Below are positions 1 to 21,849 of a stretch of DNA of 21,849 nt, in pieces; position 1 is the first letter of the stretch, and each line of letters opens with the position of its first letter. Source of the DNA: a virus; the IMG/VR virus record IMGVR_UViG_3300043774_000484, positions 1-21,849 of that record; one strand, written 5' to 3'. The position numbers were made by a program, and so were the translations under genes. Under the pieces are notes generated by a model. The model searched no databases, had not been told where the DNA came from, and worked only from the letters and a program-made list of their open reading frames with translations.

Positions 1-907
1 ATGAACCACTTATTCCGCTACTTCCAGAAGTTCCAGAAGAACCGCTTGTTCCAGATGAACCACTTGTTCCGCTACTTCCAGAAGTTCCAGAAGAGCCGCT
101 TGTTCCACTACTTCCAGAAGTTCCAGACGAACCACTTGTTCCGCTACTTCCAGAAGTTCCAGATGAACTGCTTGTGCCACTACTTCCAGAAGTTCCAGAT
201 GAACCACTTATTCCGCTACTTCCAGAAGTTCCAGAAGAACCGCTTGTTCCAGATGAACCACTTGTTCCGCTACTTCCAGAAGTTCCAGAAGAGCCGCTTG
301 TTCCACTACTTCCAGAAGTTCCAGAAGAACCGCTTGTTCCAGATGAACCACTTGTTCCGCTACTTCCAGAAGTTCCAGATGAACCACTTGTTCCGCTACT
401 TCCAGAAGTTCCAGAAGAACCGCTTGTTCCAGATGAACCACTTGTTCCGCTACTTCCAGAAGTTCCAGAAGAACCGCTTGTGCCACTACTTCCAGAAGTT
501 CCAGATGAACCACTTGTTCCGCTACTTCCAGAAGTTCCAGAAGAACCGCTTGTACCACTACTTCCAGAAGTTCCAGATGAACCACTTGTTCCGCTACTTC
601 CAGAAGTTCCAGATGAACTGCTTGTACCACTACTTCCAGAAGTTCCAGAAGAACCGCTTGTGCCAGAAGAGCCGCTTGTGCCACTACTTCCAGAAGTTCC
701 AGATGAACTACTTGTTCCGCTACTTCCAGAAGAACCGGATGAACCGCTTGTTCCAGAAGAACCGGATAAACCGCTTGTTCCAGAAGAACCAGATGAACCG
801 CTTGTACCAGAAGAGCCAGATGAACCGCTTGTACCAGAAGAACCTGAAGTTCCACTGCTTCCGCTAGTACCACTTGATCCACTTGTGCCTGATGAACCAG
901 ATGGCCC
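1..907 (-). repeat. Tandem repeat coding the Gly-(Ser/Thr)-Ser array
   Basis: The basic unit is 18 bases coding G-S-S-G-T-S. A conserved core (plus-strand GCTACTTCCAGAAG or ACTACTTCCAGAAG) recurs about 18 times between 17 and 719, always 36 or 54 bases apart, so every spacing is a multiple of 18 and any unit gain or loss keeps the frame. Single-base changes turn the expected Gly codon into Ser at 167-169, 617-619 and 707-709, each in the same T-S-[S]-S-S context. Leu and Ile appear once each in X positions. The array continues past base 1. The apparent long plus-strand reading frames here are by-products of the repeat. Confidence 0.95.
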
Positions 908-3631
908 TTGTACTCCTTCAATTTTACTTATTAAAATTCTACTTGCAGGATAATCGTTTCTTACATTTATATTTTGTGATGTCGAATCGTTATGAAAAAC
1001 ATATATTTCAAAAAAATCATTATTTGCTAATGTTAATGTAGAACTAAAATTTATTACCGTATACTCATTATTAGTCGATACGCTATTATAAGAATATCTA
1101 CCTTGAAGAGAAGCTATGTTTCCATTTTTAACTATAAATACCGATCTAGTAGTACCAGCGGTTCCCCCAGATGCCCAACTTATATAACCATCAATATTTA
1201 CAATATAAGACGCTCCAGAACTATTTGTAAATCTATTTGATGAACTAAAAGTTAAACCAGTAGACCCTTGACTATTTGCAGTATCAGCGGTATTCCAATC
1301 TGCTATAGTATCTGTACTTGAAGTTATAGTTTGAGGAGTATTACTATATCTAGCTAAAGTATTAGCCACTGTTGGAGTGCCGCTTGTTCCTGACGAACCG
1401 CTGCTTCCACTAGTTCCGCTAGATCCTGAAGTTCCACTTGATCCAGAAGTTCCTGATGTACCACTAACAGGTGTGATTTCAATACCACGAAAAGTTAACA
1501 CATTTGCAGTTGTAGCTGATAACGCGAATAATATTGGCTTAGATATCTCACCATAAGCTGTCGGCTCAACTGATTGCCACGTTCCAGAAGTAGTCGTATT
1601 TAAAAAGTAAACAGTTCCAGCAATCAAACCCGACAAACCAGTTATTAATCCATCTACTACCACTTTAAAAGTATTTGCAGTTACCGACTTAACAACACCC
1701 AATACTTCTGCATTTGCGGCGCTGTCTGCTTGCGCTTTAAAATAATTTGTTCCATCGAATCTAATAACATCACCAGCAATAAAACCATGAGCAGCAACAG
1801 TAAACTCTTCAATTAAAGAAGTGCCGCTCCCTGTATCTAATTGTTTTTTTACAATGTTATCTTCAACTACTAATTTATATAAATTTTCTGAAGTTGTTGT
1901 TGTTGGTAATTCAGTAAATACTAAATTATTACTACCGCTATAATATAACGTACCTGTTGTTAAACTATCTGAATCAGAAAATACTGGCAAATAGCCACTA
2001 ACACCAGATCCATCAATTACTTTTTTACCACTTAACGGACTAAAATTTATGGCTTGATTTATATATCCAGAACTAATAAATAAAGTATCTGAGAATTCTG
2101 AAACGACCTCATCAGTATTAATTGCGCGAACTTTTACAAAATAATTAGCATCTTCTTTTACTGAAAAAATAAAAGATGGATCTATTGTAGAATATACAAA
2201 ATCAGCAAAACCAGTTATTCTTTTTGCTATTTGTATTCCTGTTACAGTATCATTTAAATCATTGAACCCACTAATATTAGGTGTGAAAATCGATAAATAT
2301 CTAACATCAGAATATGTGCCAGTATATACATTACCGCTAAAATATCCACCACTTGGCAAGAAACTAAATTGATTATTACCAGTATAATTATAGCACAGAA
2401 AAACTTCTGAAGAATTTGAAATTCCAGAAGGTATTCTTATTTCTGTAATATAATTTATTCCTGTAGAATATTGATCATAAATACCTGTCGGCAAAGAACC
2501 TAAATTATCAGTATAAATTGTATGGTCATTCCATCGTATTCCTGAAGACCCATAATTTTGAAAAATTGTACCAGATGAACTTAATCCAGTTCCAGTACCG
2601 TATAATATTGATGAAATTTTATCTAAAGATCTATTTTGTAAAAAATAATCGTATTTATTAGAATTTGACCCACTCTCTTCGACTAAGATATGAAACGAAC
2701 AATCTTGAGACTCTGTAATCGCATCCCACTTCACAAAAATATTTAAATCTAATTCTTTAGAAGTCTTATTAAAATTATTAAACGCATAGCCAGTAACATT
2801 ATTTATTTTTTCTGGCAAAAATACCTCAGAATAAGAAGATGGTTTTATACCTGAAGACGTTATTTTTTGACCGCTAGAAAAATAACTATAAGGAATCAAA
2901 TGAACATAATAAGGAAGCCTTATTTCATTATCTGTCAGTTGATTTTGATTTAATCGAATTAAATCTGGAACATAAACGTTATCTAAAGATGGAGCGTTAT
3001 AATTTGCGTAATATAAATAATCTTGACTTAAAGGATCAAAAGATTGACCCGTTGTAACAAATAAATCTAAAGATTCAATTATTTGTCTATCTGTATAGTT
3101 TAAATTTAAATTTGTTGTATTATCTATGCTATAACCACTAATTTGTACACTTGGCACGCCAAAATTTATTAAAGCAATTCCAGTGCTTGTTCTGCCTTGA
3201 AAATCTTGACTTACTATATCAATAAAAAATTGATTATAATTAACAGCACTATTTGATCCGGTAATCGATGAGAATATACTAAACAACTCTTGAGAAGTTA
3301 TTTTATAATTAGTTCTATTAAAAGCGTTAGTATCTGTAAAAATTAAACTTCTTCCAGTATCATAATAATTAACATAAAAACCAGAAAACCCCACATCGTT
3401 AACAAACGAAGTAATTAAATCTTTAGTTATTGGTCTTTCTACAGCCCAAGATAAAGAAATCTGATTTTCAGCCATGAAGCCGCTGACAAAGGAAGTTGAA
3501 GGATCTATTCCAAAACTTGTTGGCGAATAAGAGGTATTCTTTGACGAAAAAATACCATTTAAACTTAAATCAATATTTTTTATAGCAAAAGCGCTATCGT
3601 AATCAATTCCTGTGTTGCTGATAAATGCCAT
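1..3631 (-). CDS. Long tail fibre with Gly-Ser-Thr tripeptide array (3' end outside window)
   Basis: Starts at the ATG at 3631, eight bases after the hub gene stop, and stays open to the left edge (1210 codons), so the C-terminus is missing. Residues 1-600 are Ser/Thr/Asn/Tyr-rich beta sequence with no family I can name. Residues 605-715 match a module common in phage fibres (AHGF.AGDVIRFDGTNYFKAQ near the start, GLSGLIAGTVYFL later). Residues 724-751 are a short Gly-X-Y run, 752-908 a beta-rich domain that could be a C1q/TNF-like jelly roll, and from residue 909 (GPSGSSGTSG) a Gly-X-Y array continues to the edge, about 300 residues. X and Y are almost only Ser and Thr, with little proline. 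Its place directly after the gpJ-like gene fits a side or central tip fibre that contacts the host. The receptor-binding end probably lies beyond the left edge. No Shine-Dalgarno precedes the start. Confidence 0.85.
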   Translation of the reverse strand, partial: MAFISNTGIDYDSAFAIKNIDLSLNGIFSSKNTSYSPTSFGIDPSTSFVSGFMAENQISLSWAVERPITKDLITSFVNDVGFSGFYVNYYDTGRSLIFTDTNAFNRTNYKITSQELFSIFSSITGSNSAVNYNQFFIDIVSQDFQGRTSTGIALINFGVPSVQISGYSIDNTTNLNLNYTDRQIIESLDLFVTTGQSFDPLSQDYLYYANYNAPSLDNVYVPDLIRLNQNQLTDNEIRLPYYVHLIPYSYFSSGQKITSSGIKPSSYSEVFLPEKINNVTGYAFNNFNKTSKELDLNIFVKWDAITESQDCSFHILVEESGSNSNKYDYFLQNRSLDKISSILYGTGTGLSSSGTIFQNYGSSGIRWNDHTIYTDNLGSLPTGIYDQYSTGINYITEIRIPSGISNSSEVFLCYNYTGNNQFSFLPSGGYFSGNVYTGTYSDVRYLSIFTPNISGFNDLNDTVTGIQIAKRITGFADFVYSTIDPSFIFSVKEDANYFVKVRAINTDEVVSEFSDTLFISSGYINQAINFSPLSGKKVIDGSGVSGYLPVFSDSDSLTTGTLYYSGSNNLVFTELPTTTTSENLYKLVVEDNIVKKQLDTGSGTSLIEEFTVAAHGFIAGDVIRFDGTNYFKAQADSAANAEVLGVVKSVTANTFKVVVDGLITGLSGLIAGTVYFLNTTTSGTWQSVEPTAYGEISKPILFALSATTANVLTFRGIEITPVSGTSGTSGSSGTSGSSGTSGSSGSSGTSGTPTVANTLARYSNTPQTITSSTDTIADWNTADTANSQGSTGLTFSSSNRFTNSSGASYIVNIDGYISWASGGTAGTTRSVFIVKNGNIASLQGRYSYNSVSTNNEYTVINFSSTLTLANNDFFEIYVFHNDSTSQNINVRNDYPASRILISKIEGVQGPSGSSGTSGSSGTSGSSGTSGSSGTSGSSGSSGTSGSSGSSGTSGLSGSSGTSGSSGSSGSSGTSSSSGTSGSSGTSGSSGTSGSSGTSGSSGTSSSSGTSGSSGTSGSSGTSGSSGTSGSSGTSGSSGTSGSSGTSGSSGTSGSSGTSGSSGTSGSSGTSGSSGTSGSSGTSGSSGTSGSSGTSGSSGTSGSSGTSGSSGTSGSSGTSGSSGTSGSSGTSGSSGTSGSSGISGSSGTSGSSGTSSSSGTSGSSGTSGSSGTSGSSGTSGSSGTSGSSGTSGSSGTSGSSGTSGSSGISGS
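1379..1462 (-). repeat. Short Gly-X-Y tract inside the fibre gene
   Basis: Twenty-eight residues (724-751) with Gly at every third position and Ser or Thr elsewhere, built as in the large array. It links the GDVIRFDGTNYFKAQ-type domain to the 157-residue beta domain that precedes the long array, so it probably acts as a shaft or linker. Confidence 0.9.
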
Positions 3632-7869: not shown

Positions 7870-8208
7870 TTATATTAATTTACACTTCTTTTCTTTAAAG
7901 ATGTTTTGTTTAATATCATAGATAATCATATTTAAATTATGATATTTTTGATAAAACAAATCAACATTAGAAAAATCAAAGCTTTCAGGATGACTATGAA
8001 AATAGTATAAAATTGTGTAATTATTTTTTATTTGCAAGTAATCTTTAGGAGAAACTAAAACGTGATTTTGTTTTTCTGGGTGTTTATTATCGACTGGAAT
8101 GAATTTAATTACCGAGTCTTTTTCTACAATAAACCCACAAACCTCTTCATTAGCATTTTTATTAGAATAAGATCGCAATTCATCATGTATTTCAGGTTTT
8201 AGATTCAT
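7870..8208 (-). CDS. gpK-like JAMM/MPN-domain tail assembly protease, short form
   Basis: 112 residues from ATG 8208. The JAMM zinc-metalloprotease signature is complete: Glu22 in EEVCGF, His71 and His73 in HSHP, Ser80 and Asp83 in S-N-V-D. In lambda K this domain is followed by an NlpC/P60 cysteine peptidase; here the protein stops after the JAMM fold, so only half of the usual protein is present. Lambda K is a tail tip assembly factor, and a peptidoglycan-related or processing activity is often proposed for the family. An in-frame TTG at 8241 would add 11 residues (overlap of 50 with the upstream gene). I chose the ATG because it overlaps by only 17 bases and the domain starts right after it. 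Neither candidate has a Shine-Dalgarno. Confidence 0.85.
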   Translation of the reverse strand: MNLKPEIHDELRSYSNKNANEEVCGFIVEKDSVIKFIPVDNKHPEKQNHVLVSPKDYLQIKNNYTILYYFHSHPESFDFSNVDLFYQKYHNLNMIIYDIKQNIFKEKKCKLI

Positions 8209-9238
8209 TGTTATATGGAAAGGTAGCTGGAAAAGCCCCAAATGGTAAATACGGTTTATCTTTAGTTAAATTAACATTATCATTGAATCTTAATCTACAC
8301 CCTCTTAAAGTACGCGAGCATTTATCTTGTTTCCAAACGTCAGTATTTTGCGAAGGATATTTATTTACATTATTAATTATGCAAACAAAATAATTTTTTG
8401 GTTTGTTTAAAGAAACTATTTCCGATTCATCGTTTTCTAAATTAGCGTTAGAAACAGCATCTACATAAATAAAATCTCCAACCACATAAGAAGTGGTAGC
8501 CAACCATTCATTTTTATATGTTAAGCTCGTTAAATTATAACTGCCATTATAAGGTAAATCATATAAATCTCCTGAATTAGTGCTATTCGCTTTTTTAACA
8601 AAAACTTTATCATTTTCATCAGCAACTGGCGCTCCTAAATAACCGTTGAAACCACCCCCTATTGTTACTGGCAATTTAGGCCCTGAATAATCTCTATTAT
8701 TTCCATAATTACATCCATAACATCTATAATTCCACGAACAGGTATCATTAGTAATTTTTCTTGCAGGAATAGATAATGATTCAACATCGACTTTTGTTGT
8801 TAATTCCAACTCTACTAAATTTAAATTTTCTGCAATCTTTGCGTTTACCACAAACCTATCAAACGCTATATAAGTATTAAAACTAGATATTCCATATGGA
8901 TTAATGTTATTTTCAAAATTACTAACGTCTAAATCTTTAGCTAATATTTTTTTTCTATTAAAATTTTTACCTATAAGATCGTTTCTGTCTTGCAACACTT
9001 TAGAAAAATAATTATTTATATTACCGATTTGCAATTTAGGTCTACTTTGCCTACCGTCCGAGGAGGTTTCATAAGAAGAAAACTCACAAGGTATAAAAAT
9101 ATATTCTTTATTTTGGAAAAATAAATTTTTGTTAAAATTCTTAGACCCATGAAATCTTAAATACCCCTCGTTAGATTCCAATTCTATTTCAAATAAATCT
9201 AATATTACATAATTACTAAGTTTAAATAAAGTGTTCAT
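8192..9238 (-). CDS. gpL-like iron-sulfur minor tail tip protein with inserted CBM5/12-like module
   Basis: 348 residues. The N-terminal 165 residues are beta-rich, as in phage minor tail protein L. The C-terminal part carries the L-family cysteines: Cys167, Cys173 and Cys176 in TCSWNYRCYGC, and Cys307/Cys314 in CSRTLRGCRLRF. In lambda L four cysteines here bind a [4Fe-4S] cluster; the best set is Cys167, Cys173 or Cys176, Cys307 and Cys314. Between the two pairs lie about 130 residues, with a segment at 241-306 that reads like a CBM5/12 or chitin-binding type 3 module (EWLATTSYVVGDFIYVD, then YFVC and a final W). The protein ends with LPFGAFPATFPY. Its start overlaps the upstream stop as TAATG. 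The product would cap the tube and join the hub to it. Confidence 0.85.
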   Translation of the reverse strand: MNTLFKLSNYVILDLFEIELESNEGYLRFHGSKNFNKNLFFQNKEYIFIPCEFSSYETSSDGRQSRPKLQIGNINNYFSKVLQDRNDLIGKNFNRKKILAKDLDVSNFENNINPYGISSFNTYIAFDRFVVNAKIAENLNLVELELTTKVDVESLSIPARKITNDTCSWNYRCYGCNYGNNRDYSGPKLPVTIGGGFNGYLGAPVADENDKVFVKKANSTNSGDLYDLPYNGSYNLTSLTYKNEWLATTSYVVGDFIYVDAVSNANLENDESEIVSLNKPKNYFVCIINNVNKYPSQNTDVWKQDKCSRTLRGCRLRFNDNVNLTKDKPYLPFGAFPATFPYNNESKT

Positions 9239-17377: not shown

Positions 17378-20300
17378 TTATGCTTTTCTTGTACCAGCTA
17401 ATGAACCGCCAAATCTTTGTTGTTCACGAATAACATCAAGAACTGCTCCATATATTTTAGTATTAAGATTATTTGATAATTCAACATCTTGCTGTTTATA
17501 TGTTGAACTATCTGCTCCCATTTGTATAGCGCCGTCTCTATTAACTGAAGTGTTGAAATTAAATGAATTACTAGCATTACTATTATTAACAGTATTAGAA
17601 TTATTAGCTACAGCAGATGTTCCCCCGCTTTGCATTCCTACACCATACTGTTTAACCATTGGTGTATTATATAATCCACCTTCCATATAACCAGGAATTG
17701 TATCAGATAAACGAGAACCTATTGAACCACCAGTCTGACGACCCATAGGTTTTGTAACTAAAGCTCTATTTGGTCCAAATGATGGTCCTGATAAAAATGA
17801 ATTAAATCCTGATTGTATATTAGTTGGACCTTTGTACTCAAAATTATTTCCTAATAATCCAGATTTTTGAAATTTAGCTAAAGATCCAAGTTCTGAATTT
17901 GTCATTCCAGCGCCTCCAGTTGCATTTAGTTTGGCGGATAAAGTTTGAGCTTTACCGGCTTGGATATTTCCCATTTTATTAGATATTCCAGCGCCTATTC
18001 CAATTGTTGCTATAGAAGCTACAATAGACCCAACCATTTGGGCTGTTTGAGCTTGTCTTGCGCGTTTCTTTTGTCTGGCTTGTTCAGCTTTTTGTATTTC
18101 AGCGTCACGTAATTCTTTGTATAATGAACTATTTTCAAGACCAAAAGTAGTCATACCATCTTCCATTGATTTTATATCACTCAATTCCGCATTGAACGCT
18201 CCACCACTAGCGAAACGAGGCGCAGCAGAGAAATTCAAGGTATCAAGAGCAGCAGGACCACCCATCGCCATTACCGCTCTTCTATTCAATACATACTCAC
18301 CGTTCTCAAGCATCGCTGGATATTTATCTCCAGATCCAGTTCCTGAAACATACATACCCGATTGTGCGCGTACGACACCACCTTTTTGAGCCGTAAACAA
18401 ATTTTCAAGACCAAAACTACCAATCAGCTTGCGTGTTCCTGCTTGCATCAATGTTGTGCTTATAGAATCTAAGAAACTAGCAGCAACGCCCAGTAAAGCA
18501 TCACCAAGATTATCTGTTTCTTTTATAGCGGCTTTTATCCCATTAGCCATACCATCAGCAAACATACTTGGAAGATCTTTTCCTAATTTAGCCACCATTA
18601 AATCTGCGTCATCGTTTAAAGATGAAAAACCAGATTTTAATTGTAATCTAAAATTTCTAGCTTCTTGCAATCTTTTCATCTCAAGACTGTAAACATAATT
18701 AGCTGTTTTAATATCTTCTTCATTTTTAGCTTTAGATATATCATATGCAGTCTGTGCGCTTTTTACTTGATCCGTAAAAATTTGTTTATCTACAGGATCT
18801 TTGAAACCTGTTTTAGATTCTTGTATAAAATCTTTAATTTTCTGTAAACGTTCGTCTAAAGTATAATTTTGAGATATTAATGATTCTTCTAATTTTTTTA
18901 GAGATCCAAGTGATGTATAATTTAATTTTTTACTTATATCTGCAATCATCGTCATTGATTGATTTATTTGATCTCTTTGTGCCTGTTCGAAAGTACTCTT
19001 AATTTCTAATTGAGACGATTCTGCGCGATATCCAGCAGATTTAAAAGGCTTGCCCAAGAATTCACTCATTCTCCCCTTCTCTTCAATAGATATTTTTTGT
19101 CTTTGAACGTTTGCGGCTAAACCAACTTCATTTAATTTACTTTGATTTATATATTCGTTTACATTTTTTTCAATACTTTGTTTTAATTTTAGAAAATCTC
19201 CAAAGTCTTTTGCTATTTGATCTGCCGTTTTCTGCATAGTAACATCGACAGCAGTCAATTGAGTTACAAATTCTTCAAAATTACTTAGTATATATTGACC
19301 TTTATAATTTCCTGTTTCTCCAAATTTTCTTAAACTAGTTAATAATACATCTATTTCATCTCCAGCTAAACCTTTGTCTATTAAATTACCTCTCAGTTCC
19401 TCTAAAGCAGCTTCTCTATCTTTTGCCATTCCACTTTTTCCAACTGTTTTGATTAAATCAAATAAATATTTATCTAATTCATTTTTTTTGTCACCTGTTC
19501 CAAAAATTTTTCCAAAAAAACTAGATGTACCAGCTCCACCACCAGCTCCTACATATTCAGACACAACATCTTGCATTTTATAATTTTGTGTTTTTCTTTC
19601 TCTAGACTGAGAAAGCATACCATATGCTGAATAATTTTGATTTATATACGTTGCTATATCTAATCCTTTTAGACCTAAATCTATACCTTTAGATAATCCT
19701 TTTTTTATAGATTCTGTTAATTTTTTTGATACGTCTTCGTAATCTTGATTGGCAGCTAATAATTTATTATCTAAATTTTTTTGGCTCTCTTCATTTCCAA
19801 AACCGAAAAAACTTTTAACATCATTAGCGTACTGCTGAAATCCAAGCATTACCATGTTCAAACTAGAACCCAAGAAATCTGATAAATTAGAAAATGACTC
19901 TTTCAAACCATCTATAAAATTAAAAAATGGATCTTTTATTTTATCGACTATAAATGTCCATATTTTACTAGTACTTTCAGCAACGTATTTAAAACCATCA
20001 ACGATTGAATTTCCAACAAATTTAAACATATCAATAATTGTATCGCCAAATTCAAAAATAGCTTCACTCGTTTGTTGTTTAAATCTATCAAAAAACGAAA
20101 CTTCTTTTCCTCCTGTTTTTAATTTTTCAGATGCTGATAAAACTGCTGTTTGCATAGCAGCTTTTTTGTTCATATCTGAAATTAAAAATTCTAACTGTTT
20201 TGGAGATTTTCCTTGAACAGTTTTATTTAAATTTTGATCTGAAATACTTGACAATGAATACACTAAATCTTTTGCATATTTTGCTTTAGATACTTCGTCT

Positions 20301-21849
20301 CCAGTCTCGACTGCTGATGCAAGTAATTCTATATTATTTTTATAATCTGATATAGCGGAAGACTGTTTAGCATTGGTTTCAGATATTTTTTCTTTCATTT
20401 CTCCAATAGTCAATTTAGCAGCTTTTGTTGCTTCTGAAAATGCAATTAAACCTCCCACAGCAGCACCTATAGCTGCGCCCAAACCCGGCAAAATCATATT
20501 TCCTATAAAAGCGCCAGTAGAAATAGATGTAACTCCAGTATTAGCAAAACTTTGTTTTGTTCTTTCTGATTCTGTCAATTCATAACGTTTTTTGTCTCCA
20601 TAAGCAAATTGAGAAGTAATTGCTCCTGTTATTTGAGGCAATATCATTGCTAATATTGGATTAGAAAAAGCTTTCGATAATCCACCTCCCATTTTTGAAA
20701 GTATTCCACCACCAACCCCAGACCCCATAACTGGTGGTTTTGATCCACCAGATGACTGTCCTTTCCCAAACATATTACCAAAAGACAATTTTAAATTATT
20801 AGACAAATTACTAACTGATGTTTTAACGTTTGCAGAACTCGTTTTTAGTTTTGCGGTTGCAGATTTTGATGTATTTTCTATAATATCAGCAAAATCAGCC
20901 CCAAAAACAGCTATATATTGATAAGCATTGTTAATTTTTCTCAATGCGTCTTGAGCTAATTTTTCGGCTTGTGTGGCAATTTGCTGGGCATTAAAAAAAG
21001 TTGTTCCAGAAGTATTATTAGCTTGTTGTGATTGTTGGTTTCTTTGAATTCTTCTTCTAGCAGATCTACTATTTGCAAAATTAGGTATAAAACCATCATT
21101 CATCAACCCAGCATTCTTCTGCCCTCTCATTGAATCACTCAAAGCATTACTTAAACCACCATGATCAGATATTGCGGAACTAAATGTTGGCTGACTTTTG
21201 TTTCTAATGTGCGGGAAAGGCTTAGTATCGAATACGGCTTTTTCTCCGCTCATGCTTTCTTCTAAGCCCATTACTGCTTGTTTATACGCAAAGTTAGGAA
21301 TAAACCCTGAAGCATGAGAATTAACTAATTCAATCAATGCCATATCTAGTTTTGCGGCATTGTATTTATGACCAGCTATTCCACTTTCAAAATCAGACAT
21401 CGCAATCTCCTTACCATTTATTAAGAGTTTAGAACTCTTAGCCATTTTCGCCCAAGATAATTGAGGAAAAATAGCTTTTGCAGGAATAGATTTGCCGCTC
21501 GCATAATCTGCCAAAGCTTGTTCTTGTGGTAATAATACAGATTTAATAGTACTACCGGAACCAATTTTTTCAGCAATGCTTCTGTATAATTGAGAGCCTA
21601 ATCCTTGACCTCTAAATTTTTTACCGACTTCAACGCCTTCGATTTCATAATTATTTTTGCCTGTTTTTATTGCTGATATATTTCCTTTTCCTTTTATAGA
21701 AGAAGATATCATTGAAGCGAAATTAGGAACAAAACCTTTAGAAAATGAATTTTTCTTAGATTGATATCTTTTCATTAAACCGTCTGTAAGCAATCCAAGT
21801 TTGCCTCTCATTGTTGGATCAACATCTGCATAACTGTTTTTTACAATAG
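17378..21849 (-). CDS. Tape measure protein (5' end outside window)
   Basis: At least 1490 codons. The frame stays open to the right edge (the codons before ATG 21811 read IVKNSYADVDPT), so the true start is probably upstream. Numbering from that ATG: GF(V/I)PNFA motifs at 26-32, 169-175 and 240-246, with a GNAT-like segment at 38-100; helical, coiled-coil-prone sequence at 270-345 and 470-1130; a Gly-rich stretch at 355-385; a hydrophobic helix at 433-458 (IGNMILPGLGAAIGAAVGGL); the tape measure C-terminal signature GGVVRAQSGMYVSGTGSGDK, then PAMLENGEYVLNRRAV at 1165-1180; a second hydrophobic segment at 1259-1276; and QRFGGSLAGTRKA at the end. This protein sets tail length, fills the tube and leaves ahead of the DNA, so embedded domains could be delivered into the host. 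The gene precedes the tip genes as H does in lambda. Both ends are visibly richer in GC than the middle. Confidence 0.9.
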   Translation of the reverse strand, partial: IVKNSYADVDPTMRGKLGLLTDGLMKRYQSKKNSFSKGFVPNFASMISSSIKGKGNISAIKTGKNNYEIEGVEVGKKFRGQGLGSQLYRSIAEKIGSGSTIKSVLLPQEQALADYASGKSIPAKAIFPQLSWAKMAKSSKLLINGKEIAMSDFESGIAGHKYNAAKLDMALIELVNSHASGFIPNFAYKQAVMGLEESMSGEKAVFDTKPFPHIRNKSQPTFSSAISDHGGLSNALSDSMRGQKNAGLMNDGFIPNFANSRSARRRIQRNQQSQQANNTSGTTFFNAQQIATQAEKLAQDALRKINNAYQYIAVFGADFADIIENTSKSATAKLKTSSANVKTSVSNLSNNLKLSFGNMFGKGQSSGGSKPPVMGSGVGGGILSKMGGGLSKAFSNPILAMILPQITGAITSQFAYGDKKRYELTESERTKQSFANTGVTSISTGAFIGNMILPGLGAAIGAAVGGLIAFSEATKAAKLTIGEMKEKISETNAKQSSAISDYKNNIELLASAVETGDEVSKAKYAKDLVYSLSSISDQNLNKTVQGKSPKQLEFLISDMNKKAAMQTAVLSASEKLKTGGKEVSFFDRFKQQTSEAIFEFGDTIIDMFKFVGNSIVDGFKYVAESTSKIWTFIVDKIKDPFFNFIDGLKESFSNLSDFLGSSLNMVMLGFQQYANDVKSFFGFGNEESQKNLDNKLLAANQDYEDVSKKLTESIKKGLSKGIDLGLKGLDIATYINQNYSAYGMLSQSRERKTQNYKMQDVVSEYVGAGGGAGTSSFFGKIFGTGDKKNELDKYLFDLIKTVGKSGMAKDREAALEELRGNLIDKGLAGDEIDVLLTSLRKFGETGNYKGQYILSNFEEFVTQLTAVDVTMQKTADQIAKDFGDFLKLKQSIEKNVNEYINQSKLNEVGLAANVQRQKISIEEKGRMSEFLGKPFKSAGYRAESSQLEIKSTFEQAQRDQINQSMTMIADISKKLNYTSLGSLKKLEESLISQNYTLDERLQKIKDFIQESKTGFKDPVDKQIFTDQVKSAQTAYDISKAKNEEDIKTANYVYSLEMKRLQEARNFRLQLKSGFSSLNDDADLMVAKLGKDLPSMFADGMANGIKAAIKETDNLGDALLGVAASFLDSISTTLMQAGTRKLIGSFGLENLFTAQKGGVVRAQSGMYVSGTGSGDKYPAMLENGEYVLNRRAVMAMGGPAALDTLNFSAAPRFASGGAFNAELSDIKSMEDGMTTFGLENSSLYKELRDAEIQKAEQARQKKRARQAQTAQMVGSIVASIATIGIGAGISNKMGNIQAGKAQTLSAKLNATGGAGMTNSELGSLAKFQKSGLLGNNFEYKGPTNIQSGFNSFLSGPSFGPNRALVTKPMGRQTGGSIGSRLSDTIPGYMEGGLYNTPMVKQYGVGMQSGGTSAVANNSNTVNNSNASNSFNFNTSVNRDGAIQMGADSSTYKQQDVELSNNLNTKIYGAVLDVIREQQRFGGSLAGTRKA
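17984..18037 (-). other. C-terminal hydrophobic segment of the tape measure protein
   Basis: Residues 1259-1276 (MVGSIVASIATIGIGAG) are uncharged and hydrophobic, directly after a strongly basic run (KAEQARQKKRARQA at 1241-1254). A basic cluster followed by a membrane-like helix close to the C-terminus fits the part of a tape measure protein that meets the cell membrane during ejection. Confidence 0.5.
20438..20515 (-). other. Central hydrophobic helix of the tape measure protein
   Basis: Residues 433-458 hold an Ala/Gly/Ile-rich stretch with a GxxxG-like pattern (GLGAAIGAAVGGLIAF) between charged helical regions. Such helices are usual in tape measure proteins and are thought to insert in the membrane when the protein is ejected. 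Confidence 0.6.
21074..21736 (-). repeat. Three GF(V/I)PNFA heptapeptide repeats in the tape measure protein
   Basis: The copies are coded at 21716-21736 (GFVPNFA), 21287-21307 (GFIPNFA) and 21074-21094 (GFIPNFA). Each follows a short polar run (SFSK, SHAS, LMND) and delimits a block: a 136-residue block holding the GNAT-like segment, then a 64-residue block with SDHGGLSNALSDSMRGQKNAGL. Codons differ among copies, so the repeat is conserved at protein level and is not a recent DNA duplication. Its role is unknown; a spacer, a protease site or a fold-terminating strand are all possible. Confidence 0.85.
21512..21700 (-). other. GNAT acetyltransferase-like segment in the tape measure protein
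   Basis: Residues 38-100 read as the core of a GNAT fold: strand NYEIEGVEVGKKF, then RGQGLGSQLYRSIAEKI at 67-83, matching motif A (R/Q-x-x-G-x-G/A), the acetyl-CoA pyrophosphate loop and following helix, and strand TIKSVLLPQ at 88-96 leading to ALADYAS. The segment is shorter than a typical GNAT domain of about 140 residues, so it is either a minimal or remnant form or one end of a domain that starts upstream. It lies between the first and second GF(V/I)PNFA motifs. Activity cannot be judged from sequence alone. Confidence 0.5.

Follow-up and report, generated by a model that had tools for sequence, protein, structure and literature searches.

The window analysed here is the whole of viral record IMGVR_UViG_3300043774_000484, a stretch of 21,849 nucleotides (nt) with 30% G+C that is perhaps a fragment. 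At its right end the minus strand encodes a tape measure protein (TMP) whose frame is open at the 5′ end, followed on the same strand by genes of tail families (Phage_tail_L, JAB, tail assembly and central tail fibre J). Starting from the right edge (positions are collected in Table 1) the frame runs through the end of one block, passes a first copy of the heptapeptide GF(V/I)PNFA and continues as a block with a GNAT fold. A second copy begins a conserved block of 71 amino acids (aa), and after a third copy the chain continues as the C-terminal body. That three such copies delimit blocks within a TMP was the substance of the original prediction. All three were located by pattern search, and the reversed pattern, used as a control, had zero matches in the window. 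The motif marks a large family of TMPs of uncultured phages, and the blocks between its copies (cassettes) are exchanged at the motif.

The TMP family and exchange at its motif

The window protein belongs to the PhageMin_Tail (PF10145) TMPs despite its missing N-terminus, since its segments are near-identical to those of relatives L015, L006 and L009. PF10145 is found at the N-terminus of 4/4 relatives scanned (E 1e-27 to 2e-33), and together with the tail genes downstream this bears out the predicted identity of the protein. The window TMP is a mosaic. At the nt level its first segments are 100% identical to L015, then 95% to L006 and 98% to L014. In the C-terminal body the first two thirds are 85% and then 71% identical to L009, and the last 1179 nt match L011 with 94% identity. 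The body contains hydrophobic segments and a GEYVLN element, which we take to be typical of TMP C-termini.

A search with residues 1–289 of the window protein gave 12 loci, and a pattern search of viral contigs gave at least 119 stretches, with family open reading frames (ORFs) whose lengths extend past 3,000 aa and whose first motif is often near residue 620–640. A TMP N-terminal domain is present in 73 of the 119 and the 71-aa block only in 26; another 3 have just two or more motifs, and 17 have a single motif with neither domain. The last are mostly ORFs of <100 aa, the short ones probably arising by chance; four are long, one of which (L120) contains a family cassette. The 99 loci with an N-terminal or 71-aa-block match, which had been picked by motif, contain 257 strict copies, all in the TMP frame; the other five frames have 0. 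The motif is therefore beyond chance, and it is not equally frequent in unrelated proteins, which the original prediction had named as a point that would count against it.

A further set of 80 loci, unbiased by the motif, was taken by N-terminal alignment alone; these are the best 80 of at least 579 relatives and not a random sample. All 65 TMPs of this set that are complete at the 3′ end contain the motif, in 1 to 8 copies, and all 65 contain a block of the 71-aa type. The complete relatives are 1434–3728 aa long, with a conserved PhageMin_Tail N-terminus of ~540–640 aa, and TMP length increases with motif number (r 0.65 over the 65). Besides the 71-aa type, blocks of at least 90 aa number none in 3 of these TMPs, one in 25, two in 24, three in 8, four in 2 and five in 3. 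As had been anticipated for the window, more blocks are present upstream in relatives, and across them the blocks vary while the flanks are conserved. The 71-aa-type block occurs 66 times in the complete TMPs, followed by one motif in 28 cases and by five in 1. Of the 208 family ORFs, 193 have it, towards the end of their motif series; the N-terminal hidden Markov model (HMM) matches 164 of the 208, many of which are cut.

Cultured phages provide few matches. Residues 1–289 of the window protein had no tblastn match in 50,697 phage records, and the window 71-aa block had three only (E 6–7); the L080 71-aa-type block, the L148 GNAT block and the L134 kinase-like block had none in phage records. 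For an SNase-type block the matches were two standalone phage genes. Searching with the N-terminal region retrieved 316 phage records, all of <60% identity (~26% in the best 40 of the 316). Thus no close cultured model was found. TP901-type TMPs (PF10145) resemble the family in their N-terminal domain, tail-operon position, size and hydrophobic segments. They are unlike it in that neither the motif nor the 71-aa block was found in five named ones among the 316 distant matches (0/5 for each; two of the five are cut at the 3′ end). Three of these five have an annotated integrase/tyrosine recombinase directly upstream of the TMP (L279:3086-4078, L280:3200-4186 and L281:3009-4016).

The window and L015 form a clean case among the cassette-presence events. 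The first 37 residues of the window TMP are the end of a 222-aa block of L015, identical over 111/111 nt. In L015 this block is joined directly to the 71-aa block (183/192 nt identical to that of the window), and in the window the GNAT cassette lies in between. The single motif of L015 has letters of window motif 1 at the first two of five informative positions and those of motif 2 at the last three, as expected if a crossover within seven bases of the motif had either removed or introduced the GNAT cassette. In a second pair, L163 and L164, the 1898 nt preceding the first motif are 99.6% identical. They then have three and two cargo blocks respectively, with no common block detected (blastp, E 1e-5), and rejoin one residue ahead of the motif of the last block.

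Such boundaries recur across the family. In the cassette region of 108 ORFs, 487 of 597 alignment ends (at least 85% identity) lie within 15 nt of a motif centre, compared with 6.4% at random, and counting once per query position gives 143/226; the motif's own conservation draws alignment ends to its edge, and the pairs are not independent. With the same reservations, the motif-unbiased set gives 351/1133 at ≥80% identity, 97/225 at ≥85% and 32/57 at ≥90%, where about 5% is expected at random (5.3% at ≥90%). In the window clade, 36 sequences (window included) have an assignable cassette before the 71-aa block, and with the thresholds used they form 12 clusters. Unrelated cassettes are somewhat fewer, since at least two clusters (the L015 and L022 types) are distant members of one 222-aa family. 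There are 32 pairs with the same 71-aa block (at least 94% nt identity) and cassettes of different clusters. In these, contiguous identity covers at most 18 of the 21 nt of the motif and never continues past it, and the 30 nt before the motif are 30% identical.

Cargo is held in common more often when the N-termini are similar (18/23 pairs at ≥90% identity vs 42/454 below 50%), and 5 of those 23 pairs have no cargo in common. There are 33 cassette-presence events, of which 18 are distinct by their motif triplets. Ten of the 18 have at least three informative motif sites, nine switching from left-motif to right-motif letters and one lacking a switch, while two events with two informative sites have the reverse letter order; several events share one partner locus and owe part of their signal to a motif that ends in N instead of A, so that they are not independent. 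Cassettes are thus exchanged at the motif, and its predicted role as a domain boundary is upheld. A site-specific recombinase as the shuffler is not supported: none was recognised by eye among the ORFs beside five family TMPs, judged on their first 60 residues and without a domain scan.

Over 331 distinct contexts the consensus is A-[AS]-x-G-[FY]-[IV]-P-N-F-[AS], in which G, P and N were fixed by the search expression. All synonymous codons occur within the motif, mostly near the general use of the genes, and this freedom indicates that the peptide is what is kept. In the 208 ORFs (639 distinct contexts) proline is CCT in 58% of motif codons vs 37% elsewhere, and isoleucine is ATT in 62% vs 48%. 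The CCT shift is partly one of context, since it is shared by proline in other [IV]PN triplets (56%). There may be a weak DNA effect on motif codons; a DNA-level recombination signal as the cause of the motif does not account for its fixed protein letters. From its sequence, and from models of the 222-aa and GNAT blocks in which predicted order is low at the motif ends (as is common at chain ends), the peptide is probably a standard seam, either an exposed linker or a short linear motif. The last block of L134 (L134:7876-8475) is longer and holds within it a 71-aa-type unit that starts with the variant GYTPNFA, so the seam drifts. In some TMPs elements containing PNF (IPNFNFG..., EY.VPNF) stand right before the first motif, for example L073:9463-11352; these N-terminal elements may be the source of the seam peptide.

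The cassettes

The GNAT motif-A loop of the original prediction, RGQGLG, lies in the window block between motifs 1 and 2 and is confirmed there by Pfam, family alignment and model. The block matches PF00583 (Acetyltransf_1) with 21.0 bits, barely over the 20.7 cut-off, and the corresponding block of L079 scores higher (33.4 bits, E 5.9e-8). Iterated searches among relatives gave a block family with 25–33% identity to the window, near-identical copies aside. Within the acetyl-CoA loop R42, G43 and G45 are invariant in 8/8 rows, three of which are near-identical. The family profile retrieves solved acetyltransferases (best E 4e-4). In the AF2 model the loop, of the motif-A form R/Q-x-x-G-x-G/A, is flanked by a strand (29–37) and a helix (46–58), and 37 of the 50 best VIA-align rows are titled acetyl- or acyltransferase (Z 6.3–7.7). 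Foldseek against viral models returned acetyltransferases with a probability up to 1.00 and a best E of only 1.1e-3. On this combined evidence the block has the GNAT fold and its acetyl-CoA loop is intact; acetyl transfer activity is predicted. The remaining VIA-align rows include AcrVA5 (6iuf, Z 6.6), a GNAT anti-defence protein that shares the fold; AcrVA5 is a free protein, unlike the TMP domain here, and many other GNATs match equally or better.

The block preceding motif 1 is represented in the window by a remnant that matches the HMM of the 222-aa block (E 8e-6). E65, D104 and K120 are invariant throughout the 16 rows of family alignment A5, of which two are partial, and form an E ... 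D ... [E/D]xK pattern that we take to be that of PD-(D/E)XK nucleases. VIA-align of the AF2 model gave six rows of at least Z 2, namely Avs4 (3.2), ClpX (2.7), influenza PA endonuclease (2.6), Ebinur Lake virus endonuclease (2.4), SCL3 (2.1) and YhdA (2.1). Avs4 and the influenza PA and Ebinur Lake virus endonucleases contain PD-(D/E)XK folds. There was no nuclease among the top rows of Foldseek, and a profile search against the PDB gave FliG rows only (best E 0.22), with no nuclease among the matches listed. The pattern of residues suggests that the block is probably a PD-(D/E)XK nuclease, with weak support from the fold.

For the wider repertoire, 301 blocks were reduced to 126 non-redundant ones of at least 90 aa, some of them cut at a contig end or preceding the first motif. 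Pfam (E ≤0.01) matched PhageMin_Tail in three of these and Acetyltransf_1 in three, with single matches to SNase, a cytidyltransferase-related region, HATPase and others. PHROGs (best 25 of 33 families) and NCBIfam contribute little on block identity, and 32 of 109 blocks tested have no second distinct sequence. An SNase-type family (4 rows) matches thermonuclease by profile (E 1.3e-6), with thermonuclease-type residues aligned. The profile of a further family (A8, 9 rows) matches P-loop proteins (E 6e-8); A8 occurs in 15 of the 208 ORFs, and its blocks combine a Walker A-like loop with two arginines that are invariant and lie close to the end. In a kinase-like family (A7, 4 rows) GxG, VKK, DLHGxN and DPG are invariant by eye. 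As these are by-eye patterns with no PDB sequence match, kinase identity is not claimed. By-eye readings of an ADP-ribosyltransferase in L053 and a metallopeptidase in L024 had no backing from Pfam and are likewise not claimed. HMMs of five families (222-aa, GNAT, kinase-like, P-loop and SNase) gave 69 hits in the 208 ORFs, of which 64 lie between motifs, 4 precede the first motif and 1 follows the last; the HMMs were made from inter-motif blocks, and so this position is partly built in. Two effector-type families, identified by profile, can be found on one TMP, as GNAT and P-loop in L082 and SNase-type and 222-aa in L103.

Possible role of the cassettes

A TMP occupies the tail tube until about the time of DNA ejection, when it leaves, so that domains inside it would be among the first phage proteins to meet the host. 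A proximity-labelling study reports that the lambda TMP is labelled by an inner-membrane partner during injection (PMC13190303, 2026). We think it likely, though well short of certain, that the window contains the cassette zone of a polymorphic TMP serving as an effector rack, with domains that are delivered into the host; we infer both their catalysis and their delivery. The conserved N-terminus and the TMP-like C-terminal body flank a zone of none to five (usually one or two) exchangeable domains of at least 90 aa plus the near-constant ~71-aa block, each domain starting with GF[IV]PNF[AS] and usually finishing at the next copy. Domains joined at the peptide would leave the TMP unharmed, and recombinants formed there would survive. 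The cassettes would ride in the tail tube within the TMP and exit upon its ejection. Their action, in the host envelope or cytoplasm, would come as infection begins, for example through modification or cleavage of defence components. The cassette visible in the window would be an acetyltransferase, and the preceding one is a probable nuclease. A broader proposal, which we hold tentatively and somewhat doubt, is that the TMP of this phage lineage is a quick-change rack of host-acting enzymes, with the peptide as a universal swap seam and perhaps a release site, supplying early counter-defence enzymes before phage gene expression. The enzyme types and fast exchange are reminiscent of conflict systems.

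Several known systems are partly similar. Polyvalent proteins of phages and conjugative elements combine many effector-like domains, including GNATs, in one polypeptide believed to pass into the host (Iyer et al. 2017, PMC5512222). L082 and L103 are like them in having at least two effector-type domains on one phage polypeptide; the examples given of polyvalent proteins, however, are P1 DdrB and DarA and the N4 virion RNA polymerase, where here the carrier is a TMP with domains between copies of a short peptide, and the word 'tape' is absent from the main text of that paper. From the biology of TMPs, we infer that the cassettes are packaged in the virion and injected with the DNA. Tme is a TMP-related contractile-injection effector carrying an endonuclease (PMC11126660), and Sle1 has a TMP-like carrier whose functional domain is exchangeable among Sle1-type proteins (PMC13277306). 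Both combine a TMP-like carrier with a functional domain, but belong to bacterial injection systems with the functional domain C-terminal where described. In the present case a phage TMP, from a viral record with lambda-like tail genes, bears its cassettes internally and has a TMP-like body C-terminal to them. Polymorphic toxin systems also have exchangeable domains behind a constant carrier (PMC3482391), whereas here the cassettes are internal rather than C-terminal, and often several per protein. Thus the TMPs differ from polyvalent proteins and TMP-related injection effectors in carrier, cassette position and seam. In the literature searched, which excludes most subscription papers and all preprint servers, neither the motif nor swappable cargo inside a TMP was found described.

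A number of points weigh against the proposed effector rack. Alongside the TMP the tail lumen may lack room for folded domains, which might have to travel unfolded; virion proteomics or infection data for these phages were not found. Only a minority of the 126 blocks match known families, and most have no recognised enzyme family. The predicted enzyme folds stand for the GNAT block and for the SNase-type blocks of relatives, and not for the majority. The AF2 model of the GNAT block has a mean predicted local distance difference test (pLDDT) value of 56.6 and is confident only in its core, with residues 11–60 averaging 69–83 by tens. The nuclease fold of the 222-aa block is weak, with a pLDDT of 63.6, low VIA-align Z scores and a best Foldseek E of 0.15, and the kinase-like family lacks a match in PDB sequences. 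The modest codon shift in the motif is unexplained by pure protein selection. Lastly, the closing seam is not universal, as the 71-aa-type block lacks a recognised motif behind it in 37 of its 66 occurrences.

The cassettes could instead be structural, enzyme-derived folds that serve as spacers, tube contacts or tail-length adjusters with neither catalysis nor delivery. The correlation of TMP length with motif number would fit this, as would the many blocks outside recognised enzyme families. We consider it unlikely, since catalytic-type residues are invariant across divergent GNAT, 222-aa and SNase-type members, and spacers should not need such fold diversity and rapid exchange. A somewhat smaller chance is given to the motif being a proteolytic processing site, at which a phage or host protease frees the cassettes as virion or host-entry proteins. 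Retention of the peptide while synonymous codons vary agrees with that, and so does the low predicted order at the motif ends of both models, with the qualification already made for chain ends. However, no copy occurs in the other five frames of the 99 loci, so proteins encoded there lack the site, and cutting would split the two parts of the TMP, which a tail ruler could hardly afford before assembly. Cleavage at the motif is in any case compatible with an effector rack, not exclusive of it.

It is quite improbable, in our judgement, that the cassettes are selfish in-frame elements, with nuclease blocks driving their own exchange in the manner of homing endonucleases and other domains hitch-hiking. 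Several cassettes do resemble nucleases, nuclease genes have been reported at boundaries of genetic exchange between phages (PMC10448857), and the codon shift could reflect recombination. Against this, GNAT, kinase-like and P-loop cassettes occupy the same zone, the event separating the window from L015 concerns the GNAT block alone, and the synonymous codons of the motif vary freely. A chance motif or an assembly artefact is hardly credible: the 17 of 119 pattern stretches with a lone motif and neither family domain would be expected of it, but not the confinement of the 257 copies to the TMP frame, nor relatives on many separate contigs.

If the effector rack is real, some phages bring a rapidly reshuffled anti-defence set in the tail, beyond the proteins expressed after entry. 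The cassettes would be a source of new early-acting effectors, with a seven-residue signpost predicting which domain is cargo, and they would provide clear recent cases of module exchange in TMPs. The seam peptide could also account for the tolerance of tails towards foreign domains.

Feature positions and neighbouring genes

Table 1. Location of the features described, in window coordinates except where loci are listed
Feature	Position	Strand	Basis or remark
TMP frame	17378-21847	minus	1489 aa; 5′ end open, at right end of window
Tail of upstream cassette	21737..21847	minus	last 37 aa of 222-aa block type; remainder past right edge
Motif copy 1, GFVPNFA	21716-21736	minus	pattern search
GNAT acetyltransferase cassette (activity predicted)	21308..21715	minus	136 aa; Pfam, family alignment, model, profile
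Acetyl-CoA loop RGQGLG	21596-21613	minus	inside GNAT cassette
Motif copy 2, GFIPNFA	21287-21307	minus	pattern search
Conserved terminal block	21095..21286	minus	71 aa including motif 2; HMM, family comparison
Motif copy 3, GFIPNFA	21074-21094	minus	closes cassette zone; pattern search
TMP C-terminal body	17378..21073	minus	frame 3′ of motif 3
Hydrophobic segments of C-terminal body	20426-20524 and 17978-18046	minus	TMP frame
GEYVLN element of C-terminal body	18284-18301	minus	TMP frame
Phage_tail_L gene	8192-9238	minus	PF05100
JAB-domain protein	7870-8241	minus	123 aa; PF14464
Collagen-like repeat protein	2-3631	minus	PF01391, E 6e-43; cut at left edge
P-loop family A8 blocks	L033, L062, L064, L079, L080, L082, L106, L119, L122		family alignment

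The lambda-like tail module on the minus strand of the window comprises a collagen-repeat protein and genes that match Phage_tail_L, a JAB domain, a tail assembly family and central tail fibre J. The gene of the JAB-domain protein overlaps that of Phage_tail_L, and stands presumably where lambda gpK would be; there was no NlpC/P60 among the matches listed for either. The protein with collagen-like repeats of SSGTSG type is encoded 3′ of the gene resembling fibre J, and is a probable tail fibre.

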